Positions 8,878-24,616 of a DNA stretch of 64,000 nucleotides are shown here, one piece after another. Within the stretch, counting starts at the first letter, position 1, and each line of letters starts with the position of its first letter. The translations under genes were made by a program, and so were the position numbers. Source of the stretch: Streptomyces griseiscabiei. GTDB lineage: Bacteria > Actinomycetota > Actinomycetes > Streptomycetales > Streptomycetaceae. The stretch is from NCBI RefSeq assembly GCF_020010925.1, contig NZ_JAGJBZ010000001.1, positions 3,451,001 through 3,515,000 on the forward strand, written 5' to 3'. The notes below the pieces were generated by a model. That model was given only the letters and a program-made list of their open reading frames with translations, was not told the DNA's origin and did not search any database.

Positions 8878-8920
8878 GAAGAGCGGGCGCCGATTACACG
8901 CGACAGCGACATTTAAAGCA

Positions 8921-8950: not shown

Positions 8951-9020
8951 CTATGCGTGCGGACAGGTCGGTCGAATATGCACGAACACCACTCACAGCC
9001 ACAGTCAACCCAGGGAATCC

Positions 9021-9063
9021 TGTCAAGTCACTGTCAATATTCATGTGGAACGCCGCATAAAAA
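9021..9063 (+). promoter_or_regulatory. Candidate cluster promoter with SARP-like direct repeats
   Basis: TGTCAAG (9021-9027) and TGTCAAT (9032-9038) are direct heptamers with an 11-base period, the spacing used by SARP-type activators. They overlap a possible -35 (CTGTCA). An AT-rich CATAAAAA at 9056-9063 could be the -10. This would give a leader of roughly 110 bases to the aldolase start. The assignment rests on spacing alone. Confidence 0.35.
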
Positions 9064-9179
9064 TTTGCCGCCAGTCACGCCTTGCCAACTCACGATCACG
9101 CACGGAATGCTGACGTCCGGGCCGAACTTGAAAGTTCTACGACCATCGTTTTTCGGACATGGAGCGGAAGGCTTTTCCC

Positions 9180-10034
9180 ATGCTGAAAACTGGCAAGCCA
9201 TTACGTTGGAGAAGACTTTCTCCGGCCGGCGACGACCGGCATTTGCTCATACCGCTCGACCACAGCGTTTCGGACGGTCCGGTCGCCCCTCCGGGCCAGT
9301 GGGACGACTTGTTGAGAGAACTGGTGGCCGGCGGCGCCGACGGAATCATCGTCCACAAAGGGCGCGCCCGCACCCTCGCCCCGGACATCCTCGGGAACTG
9401 CGCGCTGGTGGTGCACCTGAGCGCCAGCACGGCCTGTTCCGCCGATGTCGACGCCAAGGTACTGGTCGGTGATGTCGAGGAGGCGGTGGCACTCGGCGCG
9501 GACGCGGTCAGCGTCCATGTGAACATCGGCTCGGACACCGAGGGGCGGCAGCTCGCCGACCTGGGCGCGGTGGCCCGCTCCTGTGACACCTGGGGCATGC
9601 CGCTGATCGCGATGGTCTATCCGCGCGGCCCCCGCATCGACAACCCGCACGACCCCGCCCTGCTGGCGCACATCGTGAACGTCGCCGCCGATCTGGGCGC
9701 CGACATGGTGAAGACGACCGTGGCCCTGCCGCTCGACCGGATGGCCGAGGTGGTGGCCCACAGCCCCATCCCCGTCCTCGCGGCCGGCGGGCCCCCGGAC
9801 GGCTCCGACCTGATCGAGTACGGCACCGCGGTGATGGCCGCCGGCTGCCGGGGGCTCGCCGTCGGCCGCCGGGTCTTCTCCTCGCCCTCCCCCGCCGCCC
9901 TGGTGTCCCGGCTCGCCGCGGTGGTGCACGGGCACGGCGACGGCGGCCACACCAATGACATGGGCATGACTGAAGAGTCGGCCCTCCTCCCTTCCCACCC
10001 CCATTACTCGACGATCGTGGCAGGTGTCGCATGA
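9180..10034 (+). CDS. GriI-like class I aldolase (3,4-AHBA pathway, DhnA family)
   Basis: Class I aldolase of the DhnA/2-amino-3,7-dideoxy-hept-6-ulosonate synthase family. GriI, the characterised relative, condenses aspartate-4-semialdehyde with dihydroxyacetone phosphate in 3-amino-4-hydroxybenzoate (3,4-AHBA) synthesis. Seen here are LIPLDHSVSDGP (Asp27), MVYPRG (Tyr147) and the Schiff-base Lys178 in GADMVKT, so the catalytic set appears intact in 284 residues. I chose the ATG with GGAAGG 8 bases upstream over an in-frame ATG 21 bases earlier. Codon 8 is a TTA (9201-9203), the rare bldA-read codon. The stop overlaps the next start. Pairing with a 3-dehydroquinate synthase II homologue argues for 3,4-AHBA. 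Confidence 0.85.
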   Translation: MLKTGKPLRWRRLSPAGDDRHLLIPLDHSVSDGPVAPPGQWDDLLRELVAGGADGIIVHKGRARTLAPDILGNCALVVHLSASTACSADVDAKVLVGDVEEAVALGADAVSVHVNIGSDTEGRQLADLGAVARSCDTWGMPLIAMVYPRGPRIDNPHDPALLAHIVNVAADLGADMVKTTVALPLDRMAEVVAHSPIPVLAAGGPPDGSDLIEYGTAVMAAGCRGLAVGRRVFSSPSPAALVSRLAAVVHGHGDGGHTNDMGMTEESALLPSHPHYSTIVAGVA

Positions 10035-11242
10035 GATTCGCGTGGATCGACCTCCGTGAAGTCCCCCGTCCGCAGCTCCAGGCGGTGGTGGACGCGGCCG
10101 TCCACGCCCGGATGGCCGGGGTGGTCTCCGCCGACGCCGAACTGCTGGCGACGCTGCCGCCGACGGTGACCCGGGTGCTGGCCGGCGGAGCCCCGGCCGA
10201 CGCTCCCCCGAAGAAGTCCGCCGAGAAGGCCGACAAGGGTGACAAGGAGGCCAGAGCCGCCGACGCCAAGCCCGAGGGCAGGACCCCGGCCGGCACCGGA
10301 TTCGACCTCCTGCTGCGCAGGTTCACCACCCAGGACGAGCTGGACGCCCTCGCCGCCGCGAACCGGGTCACCACCGGCGCACCCGCGCCCCGTACACCCG
10401 TCGCCGGCTTCGTCGACGTACGGGACGACCGCACCCTCCAGCTGTCCTGCGTGGGCGCGATGGCGCTGCCGTACACGGTGATCCACTTCGCCGATCCGAC
10501 GAAGATCCCGCTGGAGATCGTGCTCGCGGCGGCCGAGTCGGCGGAGGGGAAGCTGGTGACGGTGGTCGGGGACCTGGAGGAGGCGGCCATCGTCTTCGAC
10601 GTCCTCGAACGCGGTTCGGACGGCATCCTGTTCACGCCCCGGAGCGCGGACGACGTGTTCGCGCTGGCCCGGCTGCTGGAGGCGACCACCCCGCAGCTGG
10701 AGCTGTCCACGCTGACCGTGGAGAGCATCCGGCACGTCGGGCTCGGCGACCGGGTCTGCGTGGACACCTGTTCGCACTTCGAGGAGGACGAGGGCATCCT
10801 CGTCGGCTCGTACTCCTCCGGTTTCGTGCTCTGCTGCAGCGAGACGCACCCGCTGCCGTACATGCCGACCCGGCCGTTCCGGGTCAACGCCGGTGCCCTG
10901 CACTCGTACACGCTGGGCCCCGACAACCGCACCAACTACCTCAGCGAGGTCGGCTCCGGCAGTGCCCTGCTGGCGGTCGGCGCGGACGGCCGTACCCGGC
11001 GGGTGGTGGTCGGGCGGGCCAAGCTGGAGTCCCGGCCGCTGCTGGAGATCCGCACCCACGCGGAGGACGGGCGGCTGGTCAGCCTGACCGTGCAGGACGA
11101 CTGGCATGTGCGCGTCCTCGGACCGGGCGGGAAGGTCCTCAACGTCACCGAGCTGCGGACCGGGGACGAGCTGCTCGGCTATCTGGCGCAGGACAAGCGC
11201 CATGTGGGCCTGCCCATCGGCGAGTTCTGCAAGGAGGTCTGA
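10031..11242 (+). CDS. GriH-like 3-dehydroquinate synthase II homologue
   Basis: Member of the archaeal-type 3-dehydroquinate synthase II family. Alongside a GriI-type aldolase the known role is GriH: conversion of the seven-carbon amino-keto phosphate to 3,4-AHBA. The N-terminus MRFAWIDLREVPR and the C-terminal SYSSGFVLCCSETHPLPYMPTRPFRVNAG region are family hallmarks (404-codon reading frame, 403 residues). Residues about 58-90 form a Lys/Ala/Asp/Pro-rich charged linker that looks like an insertion. The ATG overlaps the aldolase stop and the next gene begins 6 bases after this one. A primary shikimate role is less likely, because Streptomyces use AroB and only the later enzyme AroQ is found elsewhere in the window. 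Confidence 0.85.
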   Translation: MRFAWIDLREVPRPQLQAVVDAAVHARMAGVVSADAELLATLPPTVTRVLAGGAPADAPPKKSAEKADKGDKEARAADAKPEGRTPAGTGFDLLLRRFTTQDELDALAAANRVTTGAPAPRTPVAGFVDVRDDRTLQLSCVGAMALPYTVIHFADPTKIPLEIVLAAAESAEGKLVTVVGDLEEAAIVFDVLERGSDGILFTPRSADDVFALARLLEATTPQLELSTLTVESIRHVGLGDRVCVDTCSHFEEDEGILVGSYSSGFVLCCSETHPLPYMPTRPFRVNAGALHSYTLGPDNRTNYLSEVGSGSALLAVGADGRTRRVVVGRAKLESRPLLEIRTHAEDGRLVSLTVQDDWHVRVLGPGGKVLNVTELRTGDELLGYLAQDKRHVGLPIGEFCKEV

Positions 11243-11248
11243 GACCTC

Positions 11249-12661
11249 ATGGGCGCACTCGTGGCGGCCGCGGCGGGCGAGGACGGGATGCGCGCCCTGG
11301 TCCAGCGGCTGTTCGACGCACGGGACGACGGCCTGCCGTATCTGACGCATCGGCAGGAGACCGTCACCCGCGGGGAGTTACGGGAGCGGGTGGCGAAGCA
11401 GGCCGCCGTGTTCGCCGGGTACGCCATCGGGCCCGGCAGCACGGTCGGGCTCCAGACGCCGCCCAGTTTCACCCAGGTCGAGGTGCTGCTCGCGCTGTGG
11501 CGGCTGGGCGCGCAGGTGATGCTGTTCGACTTCCGGCTGAAGCCCGCCGAGGTGGACACGCTCTGCGCCGGCTGCCGGCCGCAGTTCATGGTCCGGGCCG
11601 GGTCCAACGTCCGGGCGGCGTTCGGTTTCCGGCCCGAGTACGAGGTCGCCACCGAGTGCCGCAGGGCCGGGCGGCCGGCCGCCGGCGGGCATCGGCTGGT
11701 CCAGTTCAGCTCGGGGTCCACCGGGCGGCCGAAGGTGATCGGCAGGACCCCGGAGTCGATCGCCGCCGAGGTCGAGTCGTTCGCGGCCGTGCCCGGGATG
11801 CCCGCCGAGGGCGACCGGCTGCTGCTGCTCAGCTCCACCGCGCACAGCTTCGGGCTGCTCGGCGGCCTGCTGCACGCGCTGGCCGCCGGGGTGTCCGTCG
11901 TCTTCGCGCCCCGCGTTTCCGCCCGCGACATCCTGCGGACCTCCGTCGACCACCGGATCACGCATCTGTTCGGGGTGCCGATGCACTTCGAGCTGCTCGG
12001 CGCCGCCCTCGACCCGCCCGGGCTGCCCGAGCTGCGGACCGCCGTGTCCGGCGGCGAGCTGATGCCGCCCGAGGTCGCCGCGCGGTTCGCCGAGCGGTAC
12101 GGCGTGCCGGTCGGCGAGGCCTACGGCACCACCGAGACCGGCATCGTCGCCATCGACGCCGGCGGCACGCTCCGGCCCTCGGTCGGGCGGCCCGCGCCGG
12201 GGGTGCTGGTCCGGGAGCACAAGGGCGAACTGGACGTCGCGCTCGCCGAGTCGCCGTATCTCTTCGACTCCGGCGGCACCCAGTACGAGGACGGCTGGCT
12301 GCGTACCCGCGACCGGGCCGTGATCGGCGCGGACGGCGCGGTCACCGTGGGCGGCCGTGCCGACTCCCTCGTCGTCATCGGCGGCCTCAAGGTCGACCTC
12401 ACCGAGGTCGAGCGGGTCCTGCGCGCGCACCCGGCCGTCGAACAGGCGGTCCTGGTCCACGAGGACGTCACCGAGGCCTACGTGGCGGTCGCCGCCGGGG
12501 CCGCGAGCCCGTCGCCGGAGGAGCTGCTGCGCTGGTGCCGGGAGCGGCTGGCCGACTACAAGCTGCCGCGCGTGATCCGGCTGCTGGAGGCCCTGCCCCG
12601 CACGTCCAACGGAAAGCTGGTCCGCCAGGCGGCGACGCTGCGCGAACGCTGCGCCGGGTGA
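11249..12661 (+). CDS. Aryl/acyl-AMP ligase, probable 3,4-AHBA-activating enzyme
   Basis: ANL-superfamily adenylating enzyme of 470 residues. The phosphate loop is FSSGSTGRPKV (about residue 152), the A5 region is EAYGTTETG, the A7/A8 region includes RDRAVIG and GGLKVDLTEVE, and the last motif ends with the catalytic Lys in TSNGKLV. It most likely activates the aromatic acid made by the two upstream enzymes and loads it on one of the two carrier proteins that follow. Leu44 is encoded by TTA (11378-11380), suggesting bldA dependence. It is 6 bases downstream of the GriH homologue. Substrate choice is inferred from context. Confidence 0.78.
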   Translation: MGALVAAAAGEDGMRALVQRLFDARDDGLPYLTHRQETVTRGELRERVAKQAAVFAGYAIGPGSTVGLQTPPSFTQVEVLLALWRLGAQVMLFDFRLKPAEVDTLCAGCRPQFMVRAGSNVRAAFGFRPEYEVATECRRAGRPAAGGHRLVQFSSGSTGRPKVIGRTPESIAAEVESFAAVPGMPAEGDRLLLLSSTAHSFGLLGGLLHALAAGVSVVFAPRVSARDILRTSVDHRITHLFGVPMHFELLGAALDPPGLPELRTAVSGGELMPPEVAARFAERYGVPVGEAYGTTETGIVAIDAGGTLRPSVGRPAPGVLVREHKGELDVALAESPYLFDSGGTQYEDGWLRTRDRAVIGADGAVTVGGRADSLVVIGGLKVDLTEVERVLRAHPAVEQAVLVHEDVTEAYVAVAAGAASPSPEELLRWCRERLADYKLPRVIRLLEALPRTSNGKLVRQAATLRERCAG

Positions 12662-12735
12662 GCGCCCGCGCGGTTCCGACGCGTCCCCGGAGGGACGCGG
12701 ACATTCGCACCGGAATCTTCACTGGAGTCTGAATC

Positions 12736-13011
12736 ATGAGCACGTCACTGCTGGAAGACGAGATCCGTGAGTTCGTCCTGACCACGGTCATCGACGAGAT
12801 GAACATCCTGCTGAGCCGCGACGGCATCACGGACGGGAGTCCGGTGACCGTCGGCGGGCTGGAGCTGGACTCGCTGAGCCTGATCGAGCTGACGCTGCGG
12901 CTGGAGTCGCGGTTCGGCGTGGAGATCCCGGACACCGACATCGAGCCGCTGGCCTCGCTGACCCTCGGCGGGCTCGTCGCCGAGGTCGTCGGGCGCGGGG
13001 CGAAGGCATGA
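12736..13011 (+). CDS. Acyl carrier protein (first of two)
   Basis: A 91-residue acidic carrier protein with the phosphopantetheine site Ser46 in ELDSLSLIEL. Helix II and III sequence (RLESRFGVEIPDTDIEP) is typical of stand-alone type II carriers. It follows the ligase after 74 bases and overlaps the second carrier by four bases. It probably carries the aryl starter or the growing chain. A clear start ATG is preceded by the purine-rich CTGGAGTC. Confidence 0.85.
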   Translation: MSTSLLEDEIREFVLTTVIDEMNILLSRDGITDGSPVTVGGLELDSLSLIELTLRLESRFGVEIPDTDIEPLASLTLGGLVAEVVGRGAKA

Positions 13012-13301
13012 GCGCGGAGACCTCCGCTCCGGCCGTCATCACGACCGATCTCGTCCGGGAGCTGCTGGCCGACCGCAAGATCTTCCCCGGTGTGCCGGAC
13101 GACCTCGCCGAGGACGCCGAGCTGGTACTGGACTCCCTGGGGCTGGTGTGGCTGCTGCATGTGGTGGAGGAGCGCTACGGGCTGGTGGTGGAGCCCGGCG
13201 ACGAGGACATCGCGGGCCTGACCTCGCTGCGGCGGCTGACCGCGTTCCTGGGCGCGGCCGGGACGGACGCGGTGGACGGGGGTGACCGGGGTGACCGGTG
13301 A
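13008..13301 (+). CDS. Acyl carrier protein (second of two)
   Basis: A 97-residue carrier protein with the site Ser43 in LVLDSLGLVWLL; the Trp-Leu-Leu after the site differs from the first carrier, so the two probably have different partners. It overlaps the first carrier at its start and the ketosynthase by 20 bases at its end. The C-terminal 12 or so residues are Gly/Asp-rich. One of the pair may carry the aryl starter and the other the malonyl unit; which does what cannot be told from sequence. Confidence 0.8.
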   Translation: MSAETSAPAVITTDLVRELLADRKIFPGVPDDLAEDAELVLDSLGLVWLLHVVEERYGLVVEPGDEDIAGLTSLRRLTAFLGAAGTDAVDGGDRGDR

Positions 13302-14505
13302 GGTGACGGTGACCGGGTTCGGGGTCCGCACCGCCTTCGGCACGGGCGCGGACGCCCTGCGGCGCGGGGTGTTCGCGGGCGTCCCCTCCTTCGCCCCCAC
13401 CACCCGCTTCGACACCGGCCCGTACCGCACCCCGATGGCGGGCGCGGCCCCCGACGGCCCGGACGCGGTCGCGCACTGGGCCCTGCGCCCCGCCCTCGCG
13501 CGCTGCGGCGCGGAGGCCCTCGACATGGCGGGCCTGCCCCGGGGCGCCGAGGCGGCGGTCCTGCTGGGCATCGCGGGCGACTGCACGAGCATCACGCGGT
13601 ACTGGCGGGAGGCGGCGGAGACGGGGACGGCGGCGGGGAGCCACGAGGACGGCGGCACCGCCCCGGGCGAAGACGCGCCCCGGCTCGCCGACGCCGTCCC
13701 CGCGTATCTCGCCGAGGCGCTCGCCGGGAGCCTCGGGCTGACCGGGCCCCGGCTCACGTTCACCAACGCCTGTGTGGCGTCCGCCGCCGCGATCATCCAC
13801 GCCTGCCGGCTGATCTCGTCCGGACGGATCGACGTGGCGGTGTGTGCCGGCGGCTATCTCGTGGAGGAGGAGACGTTCGGGAAGTTCGACTCGGGGCGGG
13901 CGCTGTCGCGGGACGGCACGGTGCGGCCGTTCAGCGCCGACCGCACCGGGCTGCTGCTCGGTGACGGGGTCGCGGCGGTCGTGCTGGAGTCCGCCGAGCA
14001 CGCGCGCCGGCGCGGGGCCCGGCCGCTGGCGGGCGTGACCGGCTGGGGCGCGGCGACGGACGCCCACCACATCGCCCAGCCCCACCCGGAGGGCGTCGGC
14101 CTGGCCCGCGCGGCCCGGCAGGCGCTCCGGCTGGCCGGGGACCCGGACGGCGCGGACCTCGGCTATGTCAACGCCCACGGGACCGGCACCAAGTACAACG
14201 ACGGCGCCGAGACCCGGGGCCTGCGCGCGGCGCTCGCCGGGCGGGCGGAGTCGGTGCCGGTCAGCTCCACCAAGAGCACCACCGGCCATCTCCTGGAGGC
14301 GGCCGGTGTCGTGGAGTTCGTGATCACCGTGCTGGCCCTGATGGACGGCGTACTGCCGCCGACCGCCAACTTCACCCGGGCCGACCCGGAGTGCGATCTC
14401 GACTACGTGCCGAACCGGGCCCGGCAGGCCGACCTCCGCCGGGCCCTCACCATCAACGCCGCCTTCGGCGGTGCCAACACCGCACTCGTCCTGGAGCGGC
14501 CGTGA
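13282..14505 (+). CDS. Beta-ketoacyl synthase (KS-alpha type)
   Basis: Condensing enzyme of the FabF/type II polyketide class, 407 residues. The thiolase fold catalytic set is complete: Cys164 in FTNACVAS, His299 in NAHGTGT, Lys331 in STKSTTGH and His336. It would extend the carrier-bound aryl unit with malonyl-ACP. The GTG at 13282 is used; a second GTG nine bases downstream is equally possible. Residues about 110-132 are a Gly/Glu-rich loop. Its stop overlaps the start of a second, degenerate ketosynthase-like protein, as in KS/chain-length-factor pairs. Confidence 0.88.
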   Translation: MTGVTGEVTVTGFGVRTAFGTGADALRRGVFAGVPSFAPTTRFDTGPYRTPMAGAAPDGPDAVAHWALRPALARCGAEALDMAGLPRGAEAAVLLGIAGDCTSITRYWREAAETGTAAGSHEDGGTAPGEDAPRLADAVPAYLAEALAGSLGLTGPRLTFTNACVASAAAIIHACRLISSGRIDVAVCAGGYLVEEETFGKFDSGRALSRDGTVRPFSADRTGLLLGDGVAAVVLESAEHARRRGARPLAGVTGWGAATDAHHIAQPHPEGVGLARAARQALRLAGDPDGADLGYVNAHGTGTKYNDGAETRGLRAALAGRAESVPVSSTKSTTGHLLEAAGVVEFVITVLALMDGVLPPTANFTRADPECDLDYVPNRARQADLRRALTINAAFGGANTALVLERP

Positions 14506-15473
14506 CGACGACGAACGAAGGAGGCGGAACGGCCGCCGCCGTGAGCGGGCCGGCCGAGAAGGCACCCCTCCGCGCGCCCCTCGGCGTCCTCACCACCGCC
14601 ACCGCCACCCACGGCACCGGGCGGGACGGCGACATCCCGCTGCCGCGGCTGCCCGGGTTCGTGGAGTCGGCGTTCAGTCCCCTGGTGTACGAGGTGGCCG
14701 CGCGGTGTCTGACCGAGCGGCCCGATGGGGGCACCTCCCGCTCGAGCGAAGCCGAGAGTGGGGGAGGGGACCGGACGGCCGTCGCGCTGGCGAGTCTGAC
14801 GGGCGACACCACCACGGCCGATCTGGCGAGCCGCCGGGTGGTGGCGGGCCGGGTCCACAACCCGCTGCTGTTCATGCAGGCCACCGCCAACTCCGTGCTG
14901 GGGCACATCAGCCGGGAGTTCGGGATCACCGGTCAGATGTTCAGCCTTTCCACCCTGGACGACCCGGTGACCGAACTCCTGGCCATGGCCGGCCTCCTCC
15001 TGGAGGACCCGGAGCTGGACCAGGTCCTGGTGCTGGGCGTGGAACTGGGCGGCGGCGAGCGTGTGGCCGCCGTGCACCGGGAACTGGCCGCCGCGCGGCG
15101 GGACCCCGCCCCCGTACGCCCGGCCCCGGACCTCCCCGAGTCCGCCGCCCTCCCCGGGTCCGCCGCACTGGCGGCGGCCGTGCTGCTCGGCCGGCCGGGC
15201 CCCGGCGTACCCGTGACGATCGGCTCGACGGAGACGTACGACGGCGGCCGACCCGCGGCCTGCCCGCGCCCCGGCAGCGTCCAGGGCCTGTTCGACCTGG
15301 CCGCCGCCCATCGGCGGCTGCTGCGGGACGGCGGCACCCATGTCCTGGTCACCGACCCCCGGGCGCCCGCGTTCCGCCTCGACGCCGGGCGGCGCCCGGA
15401 CGGACCCGAGGGGAACGGGCCCGCGGAAGACGAGCCCCAAGGAAGCGAGACGGAGACCCATGCTCATCAGTAG
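14502..15473 (+). CDS. Degenerate ketosynthase-like protein (possible chain length factor)
   Basis: A 323-residue thiolase-fold-like protein coupled to the upstream ketosynthase by a GTGA overlap. The segment ANSVLGHISREFGITG followed by FSLSTLDDPVTELL fits the nucleophile-elbow region, but no Cys is present there, and the HGTGT and STKSTTGH-type motifs are absent. It is shorter than standard chain length factors (about 400). By position it is the partner of the active ketosynthase; catalytic activity of its own is unlikely. Residues 75-90 are encoded by a Streptomyces dispersed repeat inserted in frame. It overlaps the next gene by 14 bases. It may instead be a divergent KS fold of other role. 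Confidence 0.6.
   Translation: MTTTNEGGGTAAAVSGPAEKAPLRAPLGVLTTATATHGTGRDGDIPLPRLPGFVESAFSPLVYEVAARCLTERPDGGTSRSSEAESGGGDRTAVALASLTGDTTTADLASRRVVAGRVHNPLLFMQATANSVLGHISREFGITGQMFSLSTLDDPVTELLAMAGLLLEDPELDQVLVLGVELGGGERVAAVHRELAAARRDPAPVRPAPDLPESAALPGSAALAAAVLLGRPGPGVPVTIGSTETYDGGRPAACPRPGSVQGLFDLAAAHRRLLRDGGTHVLVTDPRAPAFRLDAGRRPDGPEGNGPAEDEPQGSETETHAHQ
14724..14766 (+). repeat. Dispersed Streptomyces palindromic repeat inside a coding sequence
   Basis: The segment GATGGGGGCACCTCCCGC through AGAGTGGGGGAG is a foldback element (CCTCCC pairs with GGGAGG across a 20-odd base loop) that I recognise as a repeat normally found between Streptomyces genes. Here it begins on a codon boundary and adds DGGTSRSSEAESGGGD to the degenerate ketosynthase-like protein. 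Confidence 0.7.
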
Positions 15474-17136
15474 GCAGGAGCGGGCGCGGATCTGCTCCGA
15501 CACCGAACTCGGCGCCGGCAACGTCCTGCACCGGCTGCGCGCGTACGAACGTCCGCTCGACGAAACGGTGCTGCGGACCGACGGCACCTGGCGCGCGCCG
15601 GACGGCAGCCGTCCCGAGGTACTGACACTCGGGCAGCTGTGCGAGATCGTCGAGACGTACGCGGGCTGGTACGCGGCCCACGGAGTGCGCCCCCGCGACC
15701 CGGTGGCCATCCACTCCTTCTCGGCCGCCGAGTTCGCGGTGAACTTCCTGGCGCTGACCTCGCTCGGCGCGATCCCGTCGTTCGTCAACGGCCATCTGTC
15801 CCCGGAGATCGCCCGGGAGTACGTGCGCCGCCAGGGCGCGGTGGGCGCGTTCACCGACGAGGCGCACCGCGAGGTGCTGGCGGGCGACGAGCTGGACCTC
15901 GGCTTCCGTACGACCGCCGACGCGATCCGTCCGGAGCACCGCGCCTCGCTCCCCGCGTCGTACCCGTACCGGCACGACCCGACCGACCCGGTGCTGATCT
16001 CCCACTCCTCCGGTACGACCGGTCTGCCCAAGGGGGTGCCGCACACCCACCGGACGCTGATGTACGCCCAGGTGCACCGGCTTCGGTTCTCCACCGGGGC
16101 CGACATGGAGCGCACGCTGGTGGGGCTGCCGGGCGCGCACAACGCGATGGTGGCGACGCTGCTGTACTGCCTGCTGCTGCGCACGGACATCATGCTGCTC
16201 TCCGGCCGGCGCGGCACGGACGTGCTGGACGCGATCGAGGAGTTCCGGCCGACGACCGTACTGGCGTTCGCCGGGACCTTCGGCGAGATGGCCGCGGCGG
16301 ATCTGACGGCACGGGATCTCTCCAGCGTGCAGGTGTGGTTCAACACCGGGGACGCGGCGCACGAGGCGCACATCCGGGCGCTCGTGGAGCACGGGAGCCG
16401 GATCGAGATCCGCCGGGATCTGAGCCGGGTCCGCGTCGAGGGCTCGGTCTTCGTGGACGGGCTGGGCTCCTCGGAGGCGGGCTACTCGGTCTTCCACAAC
16501 CGGCACACCAAGGACACCTCGGCCTACTCCCGCCGGGTCGGCAGACCGATCAGCTTCGCCGAGGCCGCGGTGCTGGCCGAGGACGGCACCCCGCTGCCGC
16601 CCGGGCGGATCGGCCGGCTGGGCCTCAAGTCGCCCACGCTCACGCCCGGTTACTGGAACGACTCGCTCACCTGGAACCGGATGCGGCTCGGCGGCTACTG
16701 GCTCACCGGCGACCTCGCCCACCAGGACGAGGAGGGCAACTTCTACCACCTGGACCGGGTCCCGGACGCCGTCCGCACCCGCGCGGGGATCGTCTTCAGC
16801 ACCCGCACCGAGGAACTCCTGCTGGCCGCGCTGCCGGACCTCGCCGACTGCACGGTGGTCGGGGTCGCCCCCGACGGCGTCCGCGCGGACTGGGACGGCG
16901 ACGGCGAGGCGGAGGCGTACGCGCTGCTCCAGCCGGTCGAGGAGGACGACGGCACCGGAGACACCGGCGACGACGTGTGGACCGCCCGCGTCAACTCCGT
17001 GCTGACGGAGGCCGGTTTCCCGCCCGTGTCCCGGGCCCTGCGGATGAAGCCCGACGACGTGGCCAAGGGGGCCACCGGCAAGGTTCTCAAACGAGTGATG
17101 CGCGACCGGTTCGCCGCCAAGGAGCGACAGGGATGA
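15460..17136 (+). CDS. Second adenylate-forming enzyme, candidate CreM/CmaA6-type diazotase
   Basis: ANL-superfamily protein of 558 residues with phosphate loop SHSSGTTGLPKG (about residues 185-196), a GLGSSEAG A5-like motif, the WLTGDLA motif and a C-terminal Lys in GATGKVLKR. A ligase for the aryl acid is already encoded upstream, and the cluster carries the nitrous-acid genes. In cremeomycin and ava/cma-type pathways an enzyme of this superfamily uses ATP and nitrite to diazotise an aryl amine; that is the preferred but unproven role here. Alternatives are acyl-CoA or acyl-ACP ligase. The ATG lies inside the end of the preceding gene (14-base overlap); its stop overlaps the next start. Confidence 0.65.
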   Translation: MLISRQERARICSDTELGAGNVLHRLRAYERPLDETVLRTDGTWRAPDGSRPEVLTLGQLCEIVETYAGWYAAHGVRPRDPVAIHSFSAAEFAVNFLALTSLGAIPSFVNGHLSPEIAREYVRRQGAVGAFTDEAHREVLAGDELDLGFRTTADAIRPEHRASLPASYPYRHDPTDPVLISHSSGTTGLPKGVPHTHRTLMYAQVHRLRFSTGADMERTLVGLPGAHNAMVATLLYCLLLRTDIMLLSGRRGTDVLDAIEEFRPTTVLAFAGTFGEMAAADLTARDLSSVQVWFNTGDAAHEAHIRALVEHGSRIEIRRDLSRVRVEGSVFVDGLGSSEAGYSVFHNRHTKDTSAYSRRVGRPISFAEAAVLAEDGTPLPPGRIGRLGLKSPTLTPGYWNDSLTWNRMRLGGYWLTGDLAHQDEEGNFYHLDRVPDAVRTRAGIVFSTRTEELLLAALPDLADCTVVGVAPDGVRADWDGDGEAEAYALLQPVEEDDGTGDTGDDVWTARVNSVLTEAGFPPVSRALRMKPDDVAKGATGKVLKRVMRDRFAAKERQG

Positions 17137-17681
17137 CCACGAGCACCGACGGCGTCAACCACCGCGCCCGCGCGAGTGAGGCGTACCGGCTGTGGTGGCA
17201 GCACGATGCCAACTGGTACCAGGGCGTCGCCGCCCGGTTCGGGCAGGAGGCCGCGAACGAGATCAACGCGGAGGCGATGGGGAAGGTCGCCCGGCACGTC
17301 GGGCAGCGCGTCGCCCGGCTGTACGGGCCGCTCCCGGAGACCGGCGATCTCCGCAAGGACCTGGAGGAGCTGCGCCGCCGCTACGACGACTGCGGCGACC
17401 GGATGTTCCCGCCGGAGCTGCGCAACGCCTCCACCGAGGTCGAGGACGACGACGCGATCGTGCTGACGCTGAAACGGAACTTCGCGATCACCATGGTCCG
17501 GATGGCCGGTTCGCTGGAGGGCTACCGCTGCCCGTGCACCGCCGTCCACGCCGGCTGGTCGGAGGGTCTCGGGGTGACCCTCACGGAGAACCGCGCCGAG
17601 AGCTGTCTGCGGGACGGCGACCCGGCGTGCCGCCTGGTCATGCGGGTCGACCGGCCCACCGCCGACGGTTCGGAGGGCTGA
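17133..17681 (+). CDS. Unknown 182-residue protein of the cluster
   Basis: I do not recognise this family firmly. The protein is soluble, begins MTTSTDGVNHRARAS, has an amphipathic N-terminal half (YRLWWQHDANWYQGVA, GQEAANEINAEA) and a C-terminal half with four Cys: two in YRCPCTAVHAGW, one in AESCL and one in DPACRLVMRV. The layout loosely recalls the L-2-amino-thiazoline-4-carboxylate hydrolase-like family, but that is weak. The ATG overlaps the upstream adenylating enzyme and the next gene starts 3 bases on, so it belongs to the operon. It is a candidate for the missing dehydration, release or diazo-handling step, without direct support. Confidence 0.75.
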   Translation: MTTSTDGVNHRARASEAYRLWWQHDANWYQGVAARFGQEAANEINAEAMGKVARHVGQRVARLYGPLPETGDLRKDLEELRRRYDDCGDRMFPPELRNASTEVEDDDAIVLTLKRNFAITMVRMAGSLEGYRCPCTAVHAGWSEGLGVTLTENRAESCLRDGDPACRLVMRVDRPTADGSEG

Positions 17682-17684
17682 GGC

Positions 17685-18605
17685 GTGCGGGTACTCGTCG
17701 CCGGGGCCACCGGAGTGGTCGGACATCCGCTGGTGGGCGCGCTGCGGGCGCGGGGCCACCGGGTGAGCGTGCTGGTACGGCCGGGCTCGCGGGCCCGCGC
17801 CCCCGAGGCGGACGAGGTGGTGGTCGCCGACGCCCTCGACCGTGACGCCGTGTCGGCGGCGGTGTCGGCCGCCCGGCCCGAGGTGGTCGTCCACCAGATG
17901 TCGGCGCTGCGACTGCTGCGGGACGACCCGCCGGCGGCCTTCGCCCTCACCACCCGGCTGCGCACCGAGGGCACCGCCCATCTGGTCGAGGCGGCACGAG
18001 CGGCCGGCGCACGCCGGCTGGTCGCCCAGTCCATCGCCTTCGCCGCGGCCCCGGCCGGGGAACCGGTCCTCGACGAGGACGCGCCCCTGTACACGGACGC
18101 CCCCGACCCCGGCTGGGCCTCGACCGTACGGGCCGTCGCCGAGCTGGAGCGGCAGGTCACCGGGAGCGGCCTGGAGGGCGTGGTGCTGCGCTACGGCACG
18201 CTCTACGGCCCCCGCACCGCGTACGCCCGGACCGGCGCCACCGCGCAGGCCGTGCTCGCCGGACGGCTGCCGCTGCCCGGCGGCGGGGCCGGGATCATGT
18301 CGTTCCTGCACATCGAGGACGCCGTGGGGGCGGCGGTGGCGGGCGTCGAGTCCGAGACCGCCGGGGTGTTCCACGCGACGGACGACGATCCGGCCCCGGC
18401 CGCGCAGTGGCTGCCGCACCTCGCCCGGACGCTCGCCGCGCCCTCCCCGCGCACGGTCCCCGCGGCCCTCGCGCCCCGTCTCCTCGGCTGGTTCATGGCC
18501 CACCAGCTCACCTCCGCGCACGGCGCCGCCAACCACCGGGCCCGCACGGCACTCGGCTGGAAGCCGGCCAGACCGAGCTGGCGCGACGGACTGGGCCAGG
18601 AATGA
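17685..18605 (+). CDS. Extended SDR / NAD-dependent epimerase-like protein lacking the YxxxK motif
   Basis: Rossmann-fold protein of 306 residues starting with the nucleotide motif VLVAGATGVVGHPL and containing LRYGTLYGPR, typical of extended short-chain dehydrogenases. At the expected catalytic position the sequence reads GWASTVRAVAELE, so the Tyr and Lys of YxxxK appear to be replaced by Ala and Arg. It starts with GTG and overlaps the flavoprotein gene by four bases. In a diazotisation-type pathway a NAD(P)H-dependent enzyme is needed to replace the diazo group by hydride; this protein is a candidate. A reductase on the polyketide chain is an alternative. Confidence 0.7.
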   Translation: MRVLVAGATGVVGHPLVGALRARGHRVSVLVRPGSRARAPEADEVVVADALDRDAVSAAVSAARPEVVVHQMSALRLLRDDPPAAFALTTRLRTEGTAHLVEAARAAGARRLVAQSIAFAAAPAGEPVLDEDAPLYTDAPDPGWASTVRAVAELERQVTGSGLEGVVLRYGTLYGPRTAYARTGATAQAVLAGRLPLPGGGAGIMSFLHIEDAVGAAVAGVESETAGVFHATDDDPAPAAQWLPHLARTLAAPSPRTVPAALAPRLLGWFMAHQLTSAHGAANHRARTALGWKPARPSWRDGLGQE

Positions 18606-20587
18606 CCGACGCCGACGACACCTCCGGGCCCGGGAGCACGACTCCGCCCGCCGGCGCCCTCACCGTCTGTGTGGTCGGTGCCGGTCCCCGGGGGCTCTCC
18701 GTGCTGGAGCGGATCAGTGCCAACGCCGGGGGGACCGTGCGGCCCGTCGAGGTGCACCTCGTGGACCCGTACCCGCCGGGCGCGGGCGCGGTCTGGCGGA
18801 CGGACCAGCCGGGCGAACTGCTGATGAACACGGTCGCCTCCCAGGTGACCCTGTTCACCGACGCGAGCGTGGACTGCGCGGGGCCGACGGTGCCGGGCCC
18901 CAGCCTGTACGAGTGGGCGTGCGCGGTCCGTGACGGAGCCTTCGACCAGGACCTCCCGCCCCGGACCCTGGACGAGGCGCGACGGCTCGGCCCCGACACC
19001 TATCCGACCCGCGCGTTCCACGGCCACTACCTGGAGTGGGTCTTCCGCCACCTGTTACGTACGGCCCCCGCCCATGTCACCGTCCACACGCACCCGACCA
19101 CCGCGGTCGCCCTCGGCGAGGAGACTCCGGACGGACCGCAGACGGTGACCCTGGCGGACGGCGAACGGCTGACCGGCGTGGACGTCGTGGTGCTGGCCCT
19201 CGGCCACGGCACCCTGACCCCGTCGCCGGAGGAACGCGCGCTGCGCTCCTTCGCCGACCGCCACGGCCTCACCTATGTGGCCCCCGCCAACCCGGCCGAC
19301 ACCGACCTGAGCGGCATCACCCCGGGCACCCCGGTCGCCCTGCGCGGCCTGGGCCTGAACTTCTTCGACTGCGTGGCCCTGCTCACCGAGGGCCGCGGCG
19401 GCACGTTCAAGGAGGGCCAGTCCGGTCTCGTCTATCTGCCGAGCGGCAACGAGCCCGTCCTGTACGCCGGTTCGCGGCGCGGCGTCCCGTACCACGCCCG
19501 GGGCGAGAACGAGAAGGGCGCCCTCGGCCGCCACGAGCCGCGCTTCCTCACCCCGGACGTCATCGCGGAGCTGCGGCGCCGGGTGGCCGACGGGCACCCC
19601 CTCGGGTTCCGCGACGCCCTGTGGCCCCTCGTCGACCGCGAGGTACGGACCGTCCACCACGAGGCCTGGATCCGAGCCGCCCGAGGACCGGAGGCGGCCG
19701 GGGAGTTCGTACGGTCGTGTCTCGCGGCCCCGGTGGACGAGGACGCGGAGGCGGCCCTGCTCGACCGGCACGGTGTCCCGGCGGACGAGCGATGGAACTG
19801 GGCGTGGATCGAACGCCCCTACGGCGAGCGGGTGTTCACCGGCCGTGCCGACTTCCGCCACTGGCTGCTGGACCATCTGCGCCGGGATGTCGCCGAGGCC
19901 CGCCTCGGCAATGTGAACGGCCCGCTGAAGGCCGCGCTGGACGCCCTGCGGGACCTCCGCAACGAGATCCGGCTCGTCGTCGACCACGGCGGGGTCTCCG
20001 GCGACTCGTACCGCGCCGAACTCGACGACTGGTACACCCCGTTGAACGCCTTCACCTCGATCGGCCCGCCCGCCTTCCGGATCGAGCAGCTGATCGCTCT
20101 GATCGAGGCGGACGTCCTGCATGTGCTGGGCCCGGGGATGCGGGTCCGCGCCTGGGCGCGGGGCGGTTCGGGCGGCTTTCTCGTGGATGCCGAACCGGTG
20201 GGCGAACCCCCGGTCCGGGTCGACGCTCTGATCGAGGCGCGGCTGCCCGCCGTCGCCCTGCGGCGCAGCGCCGACCCCCTGCTGCGGTCGCTGTTCCGGT
20301 CCGGCGCGTGCGCGCCGTACCGGCTCGGCGGCGACACGGGGTACGAGCCCGGCGGGCTGGCGGTGACCGGCGGCCCGCCCCGGCTGGTGGACGCCACGGG
20401 CCGGCCGCATCCGCGCCGGTACGCCTTCGGGGTGCCGGTGGAGGGGGTGCGCTGGGTGACGGCGGTCGGCATCAGGCCCGGCGTGGGCTCGGTGACGCTG
20501 GAGGACTCGGACGCGATCGCACGGGCGGCGCTGGGGCTCGCCCCGGTACCGGGCCGGACGGCAGACGGAGGGAGTGACGGAACGTGA
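18602..20587 (+). CDS. CreE-like flavoprotein monooxygenase (aspartate to nitrosuccinate)
   Basis: A 661-residue FAD/NAD(P)-binding protein with N-terminal dinucleotide motif VVGAGPRGLS (about residues 22-31). The stretches LLMNTVASQVTLFTDAS and GPSLYEWA resemble, from memory, the CreE/FzmM group that oxidises the amino group of L-aspartate to nitrosuccinate. The next gene is a fumarase/aspartase-superfamily lyase, the usual CreD partner, which strengthens the call. Codon 152 is TTA (19055-19057). The ATG overlaps the SDR stop and its own stop overlaps the lyase GTG. Another amine oxygenase role cannot be excluded. Confidence 0.68.
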   Translation: MTDADDTSGPGSTTPPAGALTVCVVGAGPRGLSVLERISANAGGTVRPVEVHLVDPYPPGAGAVWRTDQPGELLMNTVASQVTLFTDASVDCAGPTVPGPSLYEWACAVRDGAFDQDLPPRTLDEARRLGPDTYPTRAFHGHYLEWVFRHLLRTAPAHVTVHTHPTTAVALGEETPDGPQTVTLADGERLTGVDVVVLALGHGTLTPSPEERALRSFADRHGLTYVAPANPADTDLSGITPGTPVALRGLGLNFFDCVALLTEGRGGTFKEGQSGLVYLPSGNEPVLYAGSRRGVPYHARGENEKGALGRHEPRFLTPDVIAELRRRVADGHPLGFRDALWPLVDREVRTVHHEAWIRAARGPEAAGEFVRSCLAAPVDEDAEAALLDRHGVPADERWNWAWIERPYGERVFTGRADFRHWLLDHLRRDVAEARLGNVNGPLKAALDALRDLRNEIRLVVDHGGVSGDSYRAELDDWYTPLNAFTSIGPPAFRIEQLIALIEADVLHVLGPGMRVRAWARGGSGGFLVDAEPVGEPPVRVDALIEARLPAVALRRSADPLLRSLFRSGACAPYRLGGDTGYEPGGLAVTGGPPRLVDATGRPHPRRYAFGVPVEGVRWVTAVGIRPGVGSVTLEDSDAIARAALGLAPVPGRTADGGSDGT

Positions 20588-22035
20588 ACGCGATGTCCGT
20601 GGGCACCGACGCGGGCCTGCTCGCCCCCACCTGGGCCGGTACGCCCGTCGCGGCGGAGGTGACCGACGAGGCGTGGCTGCAGGCCATGCTGGACGCCGAG
20701 GTGGCGCTGGCCCGGGCCCAGCACGCGGTCGGCCTGGCACCGGCCGCCGCCGTGGAGACGATCGCCTCGGCGGCCCGGGTGGAACGGCTCGACCTGCCCG
20801 CCCTGGCCCGCGCCGCCCGGGCCGCCGCCAATCCGGTGGTCGCGCTGGTGACCGCCTTCACCGAGGTCGTCGCGGCGGAGGATCCGGCCGCCGCGGAGTA
20901 TGTGCACCGGGGGTCCACGAGTCAGGACATCCTGGACTCGGCGGCGATGCTGATCGGCCGCCGGGTCCTCGGTCTGATCGAGGGGGACCTGTCACGGGTC
21001 GCCGCGGCCTTCGCCGCCCTGGCCGGCACCCATCGGCACACCGTCCTCGCCGGACGCACCCTGGCCCAGCACGCCGTGCCGACGACCTTCGGGCTGAAGG
21101 CGGCGGGCTGGCTGGAGCTGGCCGTCGACGCGACGGTGCGGGTACGGGCGGTGGCGTCCGGGCTTCCGGCGCAACTGGGCGGAGCGGGCGGGACGTTGGC
21201 CGCGTACCGGGAGTACGCGGTGGTGGATCGTGCGGGCCGCCCGGAGGCGGACGTCCACGGGGAGGGCGGTCTGGAACTCCTCGGCCCCTTCTCCGCCGCC
21301 CTCGGTCTCGCCGAGCCCACCCTCCCCTGGCACACCGTCCGTACACCCGTCGCCGAACTCGGGGCCGTGCTCCAGCTCGTCACCGGGGCGCTCGGGAAGT
21401 TCGCGCTGGATGTGGGGACGCTGTCCCGTACCGAGATCGGTGAGCTGTCCGAGCCGGCGGGGGCCGGGCGCGGTGCCTCCTCGGCCATGCCGCAGAAGGT
21501 GAACCCCGCGCTGGCCACGCTGATCGTGTCGGCCGCCCGGCAGGTCCCCGCGCACGCACTGGTCCTCGCGCAGTGTCTGCTCGCCGAGGACGAACGGCCC
21601 GCCGGGGCGTGGCACGCCGAGTGGCAGCCGCTGCGGGAGGCGTTGCGGCTGGCGGGCGGGGCCGCGCACACCGCCGTCGAGCTGGCGGAGGGCCTGGTCG
21701 TCCATCCGGGGCGTATGCGGGCCAATCTCGATCTGACCGGGGGTGCCATCGTCGCCGAACGGCTGGCCGTGGTCCTGGCCCCGGTGCTCGGCAAGGCCCG
21801 CGCGAAGAAGGTGCTGACCGCGGCGTCGGCCGCGGCGTCCGGCACCGGCCGGCCCCTGCGCGAGGTGCTGCTCGCCGACCCCGAGCTGTCCGCCCGGTTC
21901 ACCTCCGACCGGCTGGCGGAACTGCTCGACCCGGTCCGCTACACGGGCGCGGCCGACGCCCTGATCGACCGCGCCCTGCACCGGTACGCGGACGTGCGCG
22001 ACCACCACGAGACGACCGGCGGAGGAACCCTGTGA
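20584..22035 (+). CDS. CreD-like nitrosuccinate lyase (fumarase/aspartase superfamily)
   Basis: Lyase of 483 residues resembling adenylosuccinate lyase and 3-carboxymuconate cycloisomerase. The superfamily signature SSAMPQKVNP is present at about residues 300-309 together with the substrate-loop HRGSTSQDILDS. Beside a CreE-like oxygenase, the expected reaction is elimination of nitrous acid from nitrosuccinate, leaving fumarate. It starts at a GTG overlapping the flavoprotein stop; an ATG four codons on is an alternative. A catabolic cycloisomerase is possible by sequence alone but there are no protocatechuate-pathway genes nearby. Confidence 0.7.
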   Translation: MNAMSVGTDAGLLAPTWAGTPVAAEVTDEAWLQAMLDAEVALARAQHAVGLAPAAAVETIASAARVERLDLPALARAARAAANPVVALVTAFTEVVAAEDPAAAEYVHRGSTSQDILDSAAMLIGRRVLGLIEGDLSRVAAAFAALAGTHRHTVLAGRTLAQHAVPTTFGLKAAGWLELAVDATVRVRAVASGLPAQLGGAGGTLAAYREYAVVDRAGRPEADVHGEGGLELLGPFSAALGLAEPTLPWHTVRTPVAELGAVLQLVTGALGKFALDVGTLSRTEIGELSEPAGAGRGASSAMPQKVNPALATLIVSAARQVPAHALVLAQCLLAEDERPAGAWHAEWQPLREALRLAGGAAHTAVELAEGLVVHPGRMRANLDLTGGAIVAERLAVVLAPVLGKARAKKVLTAASAAASGTGRPLREVLLADPELSARFTSDRLAELLDPVRYTGAADALIDRALHRYADVRDHHETTGGGTL

Positions 22036-23597
22036 GCACCGTGAGCCGGACGACCGGGACCCCGGAGGTCGCTCCACCCACCCGCTCCTGGCCGGTCCTG
22101 CTGATCGTGGTCTGCGCGCAGATGCTGATCTGGCTGGACACCTCGATCCTCAATGTCGCCGTCACCACCCTCGCCGACCCGGTGGACGGCCTCGGCGCGA
22201 CCCCCGGCGAACTGGAGTGGGTGGCGAGCGCCTACACCCTGGTCGTCGCCTGCACCCTCTTCGCGGGCGGCGCGCTCGCCGACCGGTTCGGCCCCCGGAA
22301 GACCCTGCTCGCCGGGCTCGCGCTGATCGGCGTGGCCTCCGGCGCGGGCGCCTTCGTGGACAGCCCGGCCTGGCTGATCGTGGCGCGGGCCTTCATGGGC
22401 GCGGGCAGCGGCCTGCTGATGCCGGCGACGCTGACGGTGATCGTGCAGAGCACCCCGGAGGAGAAACGCACCCGGGCGATCGCCGTCTGGAGCTCGTCGA
22501 GCGGTCTCGGCGTGGCCGTCGGCCCCGTCGCGGGCGGCGCGCTGCTCAGCCACTTCTGGTGGGGTTCGGTGTTCCTCGTCAACGTGCCCATCGTCGCCCT
22601 GTGTCTGCTGGCGGTCCTGGTGGTCGTGCCCGACCTGGGCGGTTCCCACCGCCGGGTGCTCGACCTGCCGGGCCTCGCCCTGTCGGTGATCGGCCTGGGC
22701 GGCGTGGTCTACGGCATCATCGAACTCGGCGGCGGCAGCGCCTGGTACGGCCCGCGTGTGCTCCTGCCCCTGGTCCTGGGCTGTGTCGTCCTGGCGGTCT
22801 TCGTCGCCGGTCAGCGCCGGTCGGCGACGCCCAGCCTGGATCTGCGGCTCTTCCGGCAGCCCGGTTTCACGGCGGGCAGCGTGGTCCTGCTGATCGCCTT
22901 CATGGCGCTGGCCGGTCACCTGTTCTACGCGGCCTTCTATCTCCAGGGTCCTCGCGGTCTCTCTCCCGCCGATGCCGGCACCGTGATGATCGCCGCCGCC
23001 GTCGGCATCGTCCTGGGCAGCCAGGCCTCCCCGGCGCTGAGCCGTCGGCTGTCGGCCCGCTGGACGGTCGCGTCCGGCGTCCTTGCCACCGCCGTCACCT
23101 ACGTCGCCTACGCCTGGCTCGACGGGCACACCCCGCTGTGGATCGTGGCCGTACTGCTGTGGGTCCAGGGCTTCGGCATGGGCCTGGTCGGCACCCCGGT
23201 CACCGCCGTGATGATGCGCGGGGTGCCGCCGCAGCTCGCGGGCGCCGGGTCGGCCGTCAACAGTGTCACCCGGCAGGTCGGCGGCACCCTCGGCGTGGCG
23301 ATGGCCGGCTCGGTCCTCTCCGCCGTCTACCGGGACCGGATGGCCGACGCCGAACTCCCCTCCCCCGCCCAGGGGTTGTCCCCGGCCGCCGAGGAGGAGG
23401 CCCGTACCTCCGCCGAGGCCGCCCGTTCCCTGGCCGACTCCCTGAACCTGCCCGAACTGACGACCGCGGCCGACCACGCCTTCCTCGACGCCATGCACAC
23501 CGCCACACTCTCCGTCGCCGCCCTCGCCCTCATCGGCTCCGCCGTGGCCCTCCTGGGCCTGCGCACCCGTACCGCGTCCGAACACGGAAGCCCCTGA
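22032..23597 (+). CDS. MFS exporter, DHA2 (EmrB/QacA) family
   Basis: Drug:H+ antiporter-2 type permease of 521 residues, about 14 membrane segments. Motif A is GALADRFGPRKTLL and motif C-like sequence GLGVAVGPVAGG follows helix 5. The GTG start overlaps the lyase stop. Such proteins commonly export the product of the cluster in which they lie; here it is the last gene of the continuous overlapping operon that begins at the aldolase, so product export and self-protection is the likely job. A helical C-terminal insert (about residues 436-477, Ala/Glu-rich) precedes the last helix. Confidence 0.85.
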   Translation: MSTVSRTTGTPEVAPPTRSWPVLLIVVCAQMLIWLDTSILNVAVTTLADPVDGLGATPGELEWVASAYTLVVACTLFAGGALADRFGPRKTLLAGLALIGVASGAGAFVDSPAWLIVARAFMGAGSGLLMPATLTVIVQSTPEEKRTRAIAVWSSSSGLGVAVGPVAGGALLSHFWWGSVFLVNVPIVALCLLAVLVVVPDLGGSHRRVLDLPGLALSVIGLGGVVYGIIELGGGSAWYGPRVLLPLVLGCVVLAVFVAGQRRSATPSLDLRLFRQPGFTAGSVVLLIAFMALAGHLFYAAFYLQGPRGLSPADAGTVMIAAAVGIVLGSQASPALSRRLSARWTVASGVLATAVTYVAYAWLDGHTPLWIVAVLLWVQGFGMGLVGTPVTAVMMRGVPPQLAGAGSAVNSVTRQVGGTLGVAMAGSVLSAVYRDRMADAELPSPAQGLSPAAEEEARTSAEAARSLADSLNLPELTTAADHAFLDAMHTATLSVAALALIGSAVALLGLRTRTASEHGSP

Positions 23598-23609
23598 CAA
23601 CAGGAATCA

Positions 23610-23850
23610 GGACCTGGGCCTTTCAGGGGCACGGGACCTGGCCCTTTGAGGGACGCACTCCCGGGTCCTTCGGGCCGACAGGACCCGGCCTTTCGGAGGC
23701 GCAGTCCCCGGTCCTTCAGGCCGACAGGACCCGGCCTTTCGGAGGCGCGGGGCCTGGCCTGTCAGGCCCGCAGAACCTGGCCTGTCAGGCCCGCAGGGCC
23801 TGATCTTTCAGGGGCGCGGGGAACTGCGCGAGAAGCCCCACCGGGCCGCA
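23610..23850. repeat. Degenerate tandem array with a roughly 23-base period
   Basis: About nine imperfect units fill the gap between the exporter and fabG-like genes. Two adjacent copies of TGGCCTGTCAGGCCCGCAG (23-base period, around 23755-23800) and two near-identical 46-base copies containing CCGACAGGACCCGGCC (around 23664-23755) are the clearest. The array ends in TTTCAGGGGCGCGGGGAACT, half of the Streptomyces inverted repeat also present at 7216-7277, from which the units may derive. No coding signal is seen. The stretch 23598-23899 holds nothing else. Confidence 0.65.
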
Positions 23851-23899
23851 CCCGACAACGCACCTCACTCCCCTCCCCCCACGCCCATAGAGAGATCCC

Positions 23900-24616
23900 A
23901 TGACACGACCCACCCCCCGCTCGGTCCTGATCACCGGCGGCAACAGAGGCCTAGGACTCGCCATGGCCCACCATTTCGCCGCCGCCGGAGACAGAGTCAC
24001 CGTCACCTACCGCGGCACCGAACCCCCCACCACCGACCGCTTCCTCGCCGTACGGTGCGACGTGACCGACACCGACCAGGTCGACCAGGCCTTCAAGGAG
24101 GCCGAGACGGCCCACGGCCCGGTCACCGTCCTGGTCGCCAACGCGGGCGCCACACAGGACCGGCTGCTGGTGCGGATGACGGAGGAGGACTTCGCCTCGA
24201 TCGTCGACACCAACCTCACCGGCGCCTTCCGGGTGGCCCGGCGCGCGGTGCGGGGCATGCTCCGCACGGGCCACGGCCGTATCGTCCTGGTCTCCTCCAC
24301 GGCCGCCCTGCGCGGCGCCCCCGGCCAGACCAACTACGCGGCGGCCAAGGCCGGCCTCATCGGCTTCGCCCGCGCCCTCACCCAGGAACTCGGCCCCCGC
24401 GACATCACCTGCAACGTCGTCGCCCCCGGCCTCACCGAGACCGACATGAGCCGCGCCCTCACCCCGGAACAGCGCCGTGATCTGCTGCGCACCACCCCCG
24501 CCGGGCGCACGGGCACCCCCGAGGAGGTCGCCGACGCGGTGGCCTTCCTGGCCGGCGCCGGTTATGTGCGCGGCGCCGTGATCCCGGTCGACGGGGGCGC
24601 CGGGCTGGGCCACTGA
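23900..24616 (+). CDS. FabG-type 3-oxoacyl-ACP reductase
   Basis: Classical short-chain dehydrogenase, 238 residues, with cofactor motif GGNRGLGLAM (residues about 13-22), VANAG, active-site Ser in LVSSTAAL and the intact YAAAK catalytic pair, ending in VDGGAGLGH. This fits NADPH reduction of a carrier-bound beta-keto group, the step expected after the ketosynthase. It is separated from the exporter by a repeat array, so it may have its own promoter, but an inverted repeat before the pgi gene marks it as the last gene of the accessory block. It could also serve fatty acid synthesis. Confidence 0.85.
   Translation: MTRPTPRSVLITGGNRGLGLAMAHHFAAAGDRVTVTYRGTEPPTTDRFLAVRCDVTDTDQVDQAFKEAETAHGPVTVLVANAGATQDRLLVRMTEEDFASIVDTNLTGAFRVARRAVRGMLRTGHGRIVLVSSTAALRGAPGQTNYAAAKAGLIGFARALTQELGPRDITCNVVAPGLTETDMSRALTPEQRRDLLRTTPAGRTGTPEEVADAVAFLAGAGYVRGAVIPVDGGAGLGH

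Follow-up and report, generated by a model that had tools for sequence, protein, structure and literature searches.

Which compound is made by the genes at positions 9159-24616 of a 64,000-nucleotide stretch of the Streptomyces griseiscabiei genome (hereafter the window) is the question raised by this locus, where genes for 3-amino-4-hydroxybenzoate (3,4-AHBA), a type II polyketide synthase (PKS) and nitrous acid stand side by side. An earlier reading of the sequence alone, hereafter the sequence-only reading, had proposed a pathway like ava or cma, in which an aminated aryl polyketide is assembled first and diazotised or deaminated afterwards. This proposal matches the gene content, the gene order, curated family models and the available text of PMC10777205. 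The block is very probably a complete ava-type cluster with a product route to avenalumic acid. The removal of an aryl amine via diazotisation is an odd, recently found route to a simple phenolic acid, and the window adds a copy that is full length and whose place in the chromosome is defined. The system has already been described, and the additions made here are modest: its location, the loss of its modules, and the protein AvaB.

The ava cluster of Streptomyces sp. RI-77, which leads to avenalumic acid, has in common with the window the genes I, H, A1-A6, B, A7, E, D and A8 and two major facilitator superfamily (MFS) transporters. Compared by gene list, the set in the window is the ava set in Table 1 of PMC10777205 (partial text). 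The two copies belong to different strains, and the one in the window is flanked by the pentose phosphate genes pgl and pgi. The suggestion that the block may define an uncharacterised member is therefore weakened, as the same set is found in many relatives. The genes follow one another on the plus strand in the order I, H, A1, A2, A3, A4, A5, A6, B, A7, E, D, MFS exporter and A8 (Table 1). Family models and codon-position G+C confirmed every gene that had been named before; avaB had been overlooked. The third-codon-position G+C is 0.87-0.96 in I, H, A1-A4, A6, A7, E, D and A8, 0.95 in B, and 0.86 in A5, where it was measured in the longer frame only, and the frame of the exporter rests on its MFS match. 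Each cluster gene is an open, full-length frame in which no inactivating change was seen. According to their coordinates, nine of the twelve junctions from I to the exporter overlap, and these genes may be read as a single operon. The start of I proposed earlier, 9180, is possible, and 9159 is equally a candidate.

The starter would be supplied by I, a DeoC/LacD aldolase, and H, of the 3-dehydroquinate synthase II (DHQS II) family, which form the overlapping AvaI/AvaH (GriI/GriH-like) pair for 3,4-AHBA and both exceed their PRK cut-offs. They are followed by the ligase, the two carriers, the ketosynthase and the chain length factor (CLF) of an ava cluster. A1, the aryl-AMP ligase of the sequence-only reading, is an AMP-binding ligase with a C-terminal domain, both carriers contain a DSL motif, and the intact ketosynthase A4 has the motifs ACVASA, HGTGT and GHLL. 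A3 and A5 score below the Pfam cut-offs, and their assignment rests on motif, fold and position. Directly after its DSL motif, A3 contains a W-x2-H, which resembles the pair in a carrier protein that PMC10777205 (partial text) connects with recognition by the ligase. A5 had been described as a degenerate partner of the ketosynthase; it is instead a short CLF, conserved enough to be matched in all 44 related loci, and is thus, judged by this conservation, not a broken gene. It has just two cysteines, neither of them in a ketosynthase active-site motif (by eye), and is 238-325 residues long in 43 of the 44 loci, by extension of the match; locus L005 has an internal stop. The AlphaFold2 (AF2) model of A5 is of low confidence (pLDDT 67); its best fold match is the ApeC CLF 6qsp_B, and the ishigamide CLF is fourth. 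A ketosynthase with a CLF is likewise found in the highly reducing type II PKSs for aryl polyenes and ishigamide, from which the window would differ, by analogy, in its 3,4-AHBA starter. None of the cluster genes was found to belong to a dedicated dehydratase or thioesterase family.

The two steps that define the pathway are represented by A6 and A7. A6, previously noted as a second adenylating enzyme, passes the cut-off of NF058622, the NCBIfam equivalog for 3-aminoavenalumate diazotase, and A7 that of NF058621, the equivalog for 3-diazoavenalumate denitrifying reductase; the AvaA6 diazotase and the NADPH-dependent AvaA7 reductase of the ava cluster are thus both matched. E and D, foreseen as a CreE-like flavoprotein overlapping a CreD-like lyase, are by sequence members of the aspartate-nitrosuccinate (ANS) pathway of cremeomycin. 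D passes the equivalog cut-off for nitrosuccinate lyase and matches the CreD structure 5xny. E, an FAD/NAD(P)-binding protein, is assigned as the CreE-type aspartate N-monooxygenase by its match to PDB 8cp2 over residues 20-647, and matched no NCBIfam model at E-values <=0.001. The code 8cp2 occurs in the available text of PMC10404684, a paper on L-aspartate N-hydroxylase. The cremeomycin pathway keeps the diazo group, whereas nitrite in the window would, by analogy, serve deamination.

Family membership and gene order are direct observations, and from them a route can be proposed in which the characterised Ava and Cma enzymes serve as the model for all catalytic steps inferred for this strain. 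The pair I and H would form 3,4-AHBA, which A1 would load onto the carrier A3. A4 and A5, together with the malonyl carrier A2, the ketoreductase A8, B and a borrowed dehydratase, may then carry out two extensions and reductions to give 3-aminoavenalumate. E would convert aspartate to nitrosuccinate, from which D would free nitrous acid. With ATP and nitrite, A6 would diazotise the aryl amine, A7 would then replace N2 by a hydride from NADPH to yield avenalumic acid, and the MFS protein would export the product.

Most of these enzymes are common to ava and cma clusters, and a cma-like cluster, in which a single malonyl extension leads to p-coumaric acid, is an alternative that we consider improbable. 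The cma cluster of Kutzneria albida has I, H, A1-A6, B, A7, E and D in the same order as the window. It yields p-coumaric acid and contains CmaG (FMN oxidoreductase) and CmaR (LysR) in place of A8 and AvaC (PMC10777205, partial text, in which the ava product is credited to earlier work). The window has A8, and no Pfam match for a CmaG-like FMN oxidoreductase or a CmaR-like LysR protein was obtained among the listed genes at 7315-24616, between pgl and pgi, the rest of the genome not having been searched. Therefore, the cluster is assigned to the ava type, and its likely product is avenalumic acid and not p-coumaric acid. The cma-like locus L043 of Allokutzneria has an FMN reductase after D, and tblastn gave no match for B or A8 there, unlike in the window. 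A8 was counted as present in 34 of 39 hand-scored rows, including a partial match in L019.

Several points weigh against the assignment to avenalumic acid. A6 and A7 of L043 also exceed the cut-offs of the AvaA6 and AvaA7 models, which therefore do not separate C5 from C3 chains, and A5 varies strongly among relatives, with 50% identity to that of L043. The chain length is judged from the accessory genes of the block. The likeness to RI-77 is one of gene set, D is just 1.3 bits over the NF052556 cut-off, and the support as a whole comes from sequence analysis. Furthermore, a third CLF clade with unknown products exists (PMC10777205, partial text). This clade would also allow for a different product, with another chain length or with a diazo, hydrazine or hydroxyl group kept as in spinamycin, which employs a related diazotase (PMC11705231, partial text), or similar pathways. 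We regard such an outcome as very unlikely, since A7 is intact and over its equivalog cut-off, so that the diazo group should be removed, and the genes listed from pgl to pgi yielded no family outside the ava set.

Relatives of the avenalumic acid-type cluster were collected by scanning GTDB genomes with six exact 8-residue patterns from A6, a search that reaches close relatives only. The resulting 44 loci belong to 41 Streptomyces, one Streptomycetaceae metagenome-assembled genome, one Actinoplanes and one Allokutzneria. The genome of the window (10.6 Mb in 8 contigs; the window DNA is high-GC) has Streptomyces as its closest named relatives, and its A6 is 93% identical to that of Streptomyces sp. 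MNU76. An even sample of 295 genomes of the genus contained 17, that of the window among them, whose A6 exceeded the equivalog cut-off. The order of the genes present is kept among the loci, except that the exporter match of L040 lies upstream on the other strand and L044 is broken up. This recurrence refutes a chance assembly of unrelated genes, and a decaying cluster has next to no probability either: losses of E/D, the exporter, A8 or A7 do occur in relatives, whereas every gene of the window is open and full length. In L040 (Actinoplanes, 13113-15508), the ava-like cluster has no matches for E/D or A8, an AMP-binding ligase and an NmrA-like short-chain dehydrogenase/reductase stand after it, and its product tailoring possibly differs.

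The position between pgl and pgi is shared by part of the relatives. Both genes flank the cluster in the window and in 9 of the 44 loci, and pgi alone in two more (L008 and L035). Thirty pgi loci were examined, from the genome of the window and its relatives, and eight relatives had pgl inside the fetched flank; the pgl-pgi gap measured 73-199 bp in seven of them and 970 bp in one, and none of the eight has an A6 over the cut-off. In a tree of H, A1 and A6, rows that share the pgl/pgi position fall together with the window in a single supported group of 12 (96/94; one member, L002, is unscored), with L035 apart, which amounts to two changes in a tree that cannot distinguish gain from loss. Taken together with the short pgl-pgi distances in genomes that lack the cluster, this grouping is most simply explained by a single insertion of the cluster between the two convergent core genes in this lineage. 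It is speculation that NADPH supply from the adjoining pentose phosphate genes might be relevant to the cluster; a second zwf lies elsewhere in the genome.

The nitrite genes come and go among the relatives, which bears on whether nitrite often comes from outside the cluster. In 42 scored rows (44 loci and the window, minus L044, L002 and L021), both E and D were present in 23, neither in 16, and a partial set in three: L009 (36% of E), L013 (23% of E and 16% of D) and L036 (D only). In L008, L010 and L028, the gap after A7 still resembles the N-terminus of E by eye, and these are deletion scars. The fewest changes of E/D state on the tree of relatives are 13, or 12 without L040 and L043; shuffled labels average 14.2 changes, and 99 of 300 shuffles were as low as observed, so the E/D state follows the tree no better than chance. 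E/D changes most often of the three gene sets scored but is not the sole part that comes and goes, because the exporter (9 changes in 38 rows) and A8 (4 in 39; both coded by hand) also change. Of the 41 loci that extend beyond A7, 40 have it at full length, and A6, being the query, is present in all by construction. Over 22 rows, distances of E track those of A6 (Mantel r 0.54; largest of 1000 permutations 0.30), and those of D do so less (r 0.27, not permuted). The deletion scars and the changes on the tree make repeated loss of E/D the simplest reading; some gains or exchanges are possible, and draft assemblies may hide copies. That half of such clusters lack E/D was already known, as 72 of 134 related clusters were counted without them in PMC10777205 (partial text), the available part of which contained no count of repeated losses and no deletion scars.

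Other genes are also reduced in single relatives. In Streptomyces scabiei 87.22 (L039, 12250-12465), an internal deletion has apparently left only remnants of A7 (11% matched), with A6, E and D still present. The end product of this strain might therefore still carry the diazo group, provided that no other reductase acts. In L003 and L011, the exporter gene that follows D is a fragment, with 32% and 25% of its length matched, respectively.

A second CreE-like gene is present in the window genome and many relatives, with 56-58% identity to E and 68-88% to the copy in L053. In L047 (G000:C1:4012151-4014022) it is 57% identical to E; it also occurs in L053 and L054 and is common in the genus, with 16 of 41 members positive by reading of the search output. 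No D was seen beside it in L047, L053 or L054. From the N-termini of the neighbours, it appears to lie between PhoD- and DoxX-like genes in L047 and L053 and beside a DoxX-like one in L054. At about 68% identity or more, the gene was found in 12 of 14 ava genomes that lack E/D, in four of these as two pieces or as a partial match, and in 10 of 12 ava genomes with E/D intact. As its presence does not go with E/D loss, it was rejected as the nitrite source of E/D-less strains. A nitrosuccinate lyase over the cut-off was found elsewhere in two of the ten E/D-less genomes tested (from 16 loci without both genes), and the best lyase matches of the other eight reached 528-583 bits. The window genome has an additional lyase match of 555 bits elsewhere, in what we presume, from N-termini alone, to be a pca-catabolism-like neighbourhood.

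AvaB (182 residues) is the one cluster gene product without an assigned role. Homologues occur at its position between A6 and A7 in relatives, and by position and conservation it is a candidate homologue of AvaB from RI-77. A predicted model and fold search point to a Bet3/V4R/phenol-sensor fold, which is a concrete lead on its role. Matches came from fold comparison alone, as sequence searches for relatives of known structure gave chance-level matches or none. In Pfam, PF14196 (15.2 bits, cut-off 28.1) and PF19620 (18.6, cut-off 27) remained below threshold, and V4R was not listed at E-values <=10. The alignment has C133, C135, C158 and C166 in 72 of 72 rows and E152 in 65 of 72, with a sequence spacing that resembles Cys151/Glu172/Cys177/Cys185 of DmpR; V4R-type zinc sites consist of three Cys and one Glu, and the AvaB pattern is predicted to be zinc-site-like. 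H139 and W142 are invariant, and W21, W22, H24 and W28 nearly so. The closest known counterparts in fold are the phenol-sensor domains of DmpR, MopR and PoxR and the TRAPP subunit Bet3; AvaB differs from these in having no Pfam V4R match, in being a free-standing protein in a PKS operon and in showing no His/Trp at the DmpR spacing ahead of the first Cys, where a His/Trp dyad would hold the hydroxyl of the phenol. We tentatively propose that AvaB might be a pocket protein of the Bet3/V4R type, stabilised by zinc, in which the 3-amino-4-hydroxyphenyl acyl chain is bound, acting as a carrier-to-PKS chaperone or as the missing release (thioesterase) factor. If true, a ligand-sensor fold would have been recruited into a polyketide synthase.

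Table 1. Features of the probable ava-type block in the window, with the evidence for each assignment.
Feature	Position	Strand	Evidence
MFS transporter, metabolite/H+ symporter type; candidate avaF or avaC	7315..8703	-	PF00083/PF07690; divergent from cluster
avaI/GriI-like aldolase for 3,4-AHBA (alternative start 9180)	9159..10034	+	PF01791; PRK07226 310.7 bits, cut-off 241
avaH/GriH-like 3,4-AHBA synthase, DHQS II family	10031..11242	+	PF01959 345 bits; PRK02290.1-3 586.6 bits, cut-off 375
avaA1-like acyl-ACP ligase	11249..12661	+	PF00501 and PF13193 (C-terminal domain); position, synteny
avaA2-like acyl carrier protein (ACP), malonyl carrier by analogy	12736..13011	+	PF00550; DSL motif
avaA3-like carrier protein, starter carrier by analogy	13008..13301	+	PF00550 sub-threshold, 14.8 bits; DSL at 42, WLLH at 48
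avaA4-like ketosynthase	13282..14505	+	PF00109/PF02801; active-site motifs
avaA5-like chain length factor, short, without active-site Cys	14502..15473	+	PF00109 sub-threshold, 17.7 bits; low-confidence AF2 model; synteny
avaA6-like ATP-dependent diazotase	15460..17136	+	NF058622 1031.9 bits, cut-off 975; PDB 8ztz 819.9 bits
avaB-like protein, predicted Bet3/V4R fold	17133..17681	+	Position; alignment of relatives; model and fold search
avaA7-like NAD(P)H denitrifying (diazo to H) reductase	17685..18605	+	NF058621 510.7 bits, cut-off 400
avaE/CreE-like aspartate N-monooxygenase	18602..20587	+	PF13454; PDB 8cp2 619.9 bits
avaD/CreD-like nitrosuccinate lyase	20584..22035	+	NF052556 651.3 bits, cut-off 650; CreD 5xny 503 bits
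MFS exporter	22032..23597	+	PF07690 188.6 bits; open frame checked
avaA8-like FabG ketoreductase	23900..24616	+	PF13561/PF00106

Upstream of the block, tkt, tal, zwf, opcA and pgl occupy 341-7176, as assigned from third-position G+C and family models, and are followed by the minus-strand MFS gene, which has a match in 31 of the 44 related loci. After A8, pgi lies on the minus strand at 24721-26373. The 64-kb window contains no tRNA and no Rfam match, and scans for promoters and terminators gave signals at chance level. A 34-nt inverted repeat flanks the block (7207-7240 and 23806-23839). The 21-mer GGGGCGCGGGGAACTGCGCGA within it has 372 exact copies in the genome, compared with 0 for the control, and the repeat is therefore not a cluster-specific end; an origin of the cluster from a mobile element or att site via this repeat was rejected, given the dispersed copies and the lack of a tRNA in the window. 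Seventeen bases of the 21-mer were found in none of the paper texts searched. Inverted pairs with a spacing of about 50-100 bp are frequent among the first 100 copies listed. The segment 7177-7314, between convergent genes, folds as a 138-nt hairpin (-97.4 kcal/mol, z -9.35) that is part of the dispersed intergenic element.

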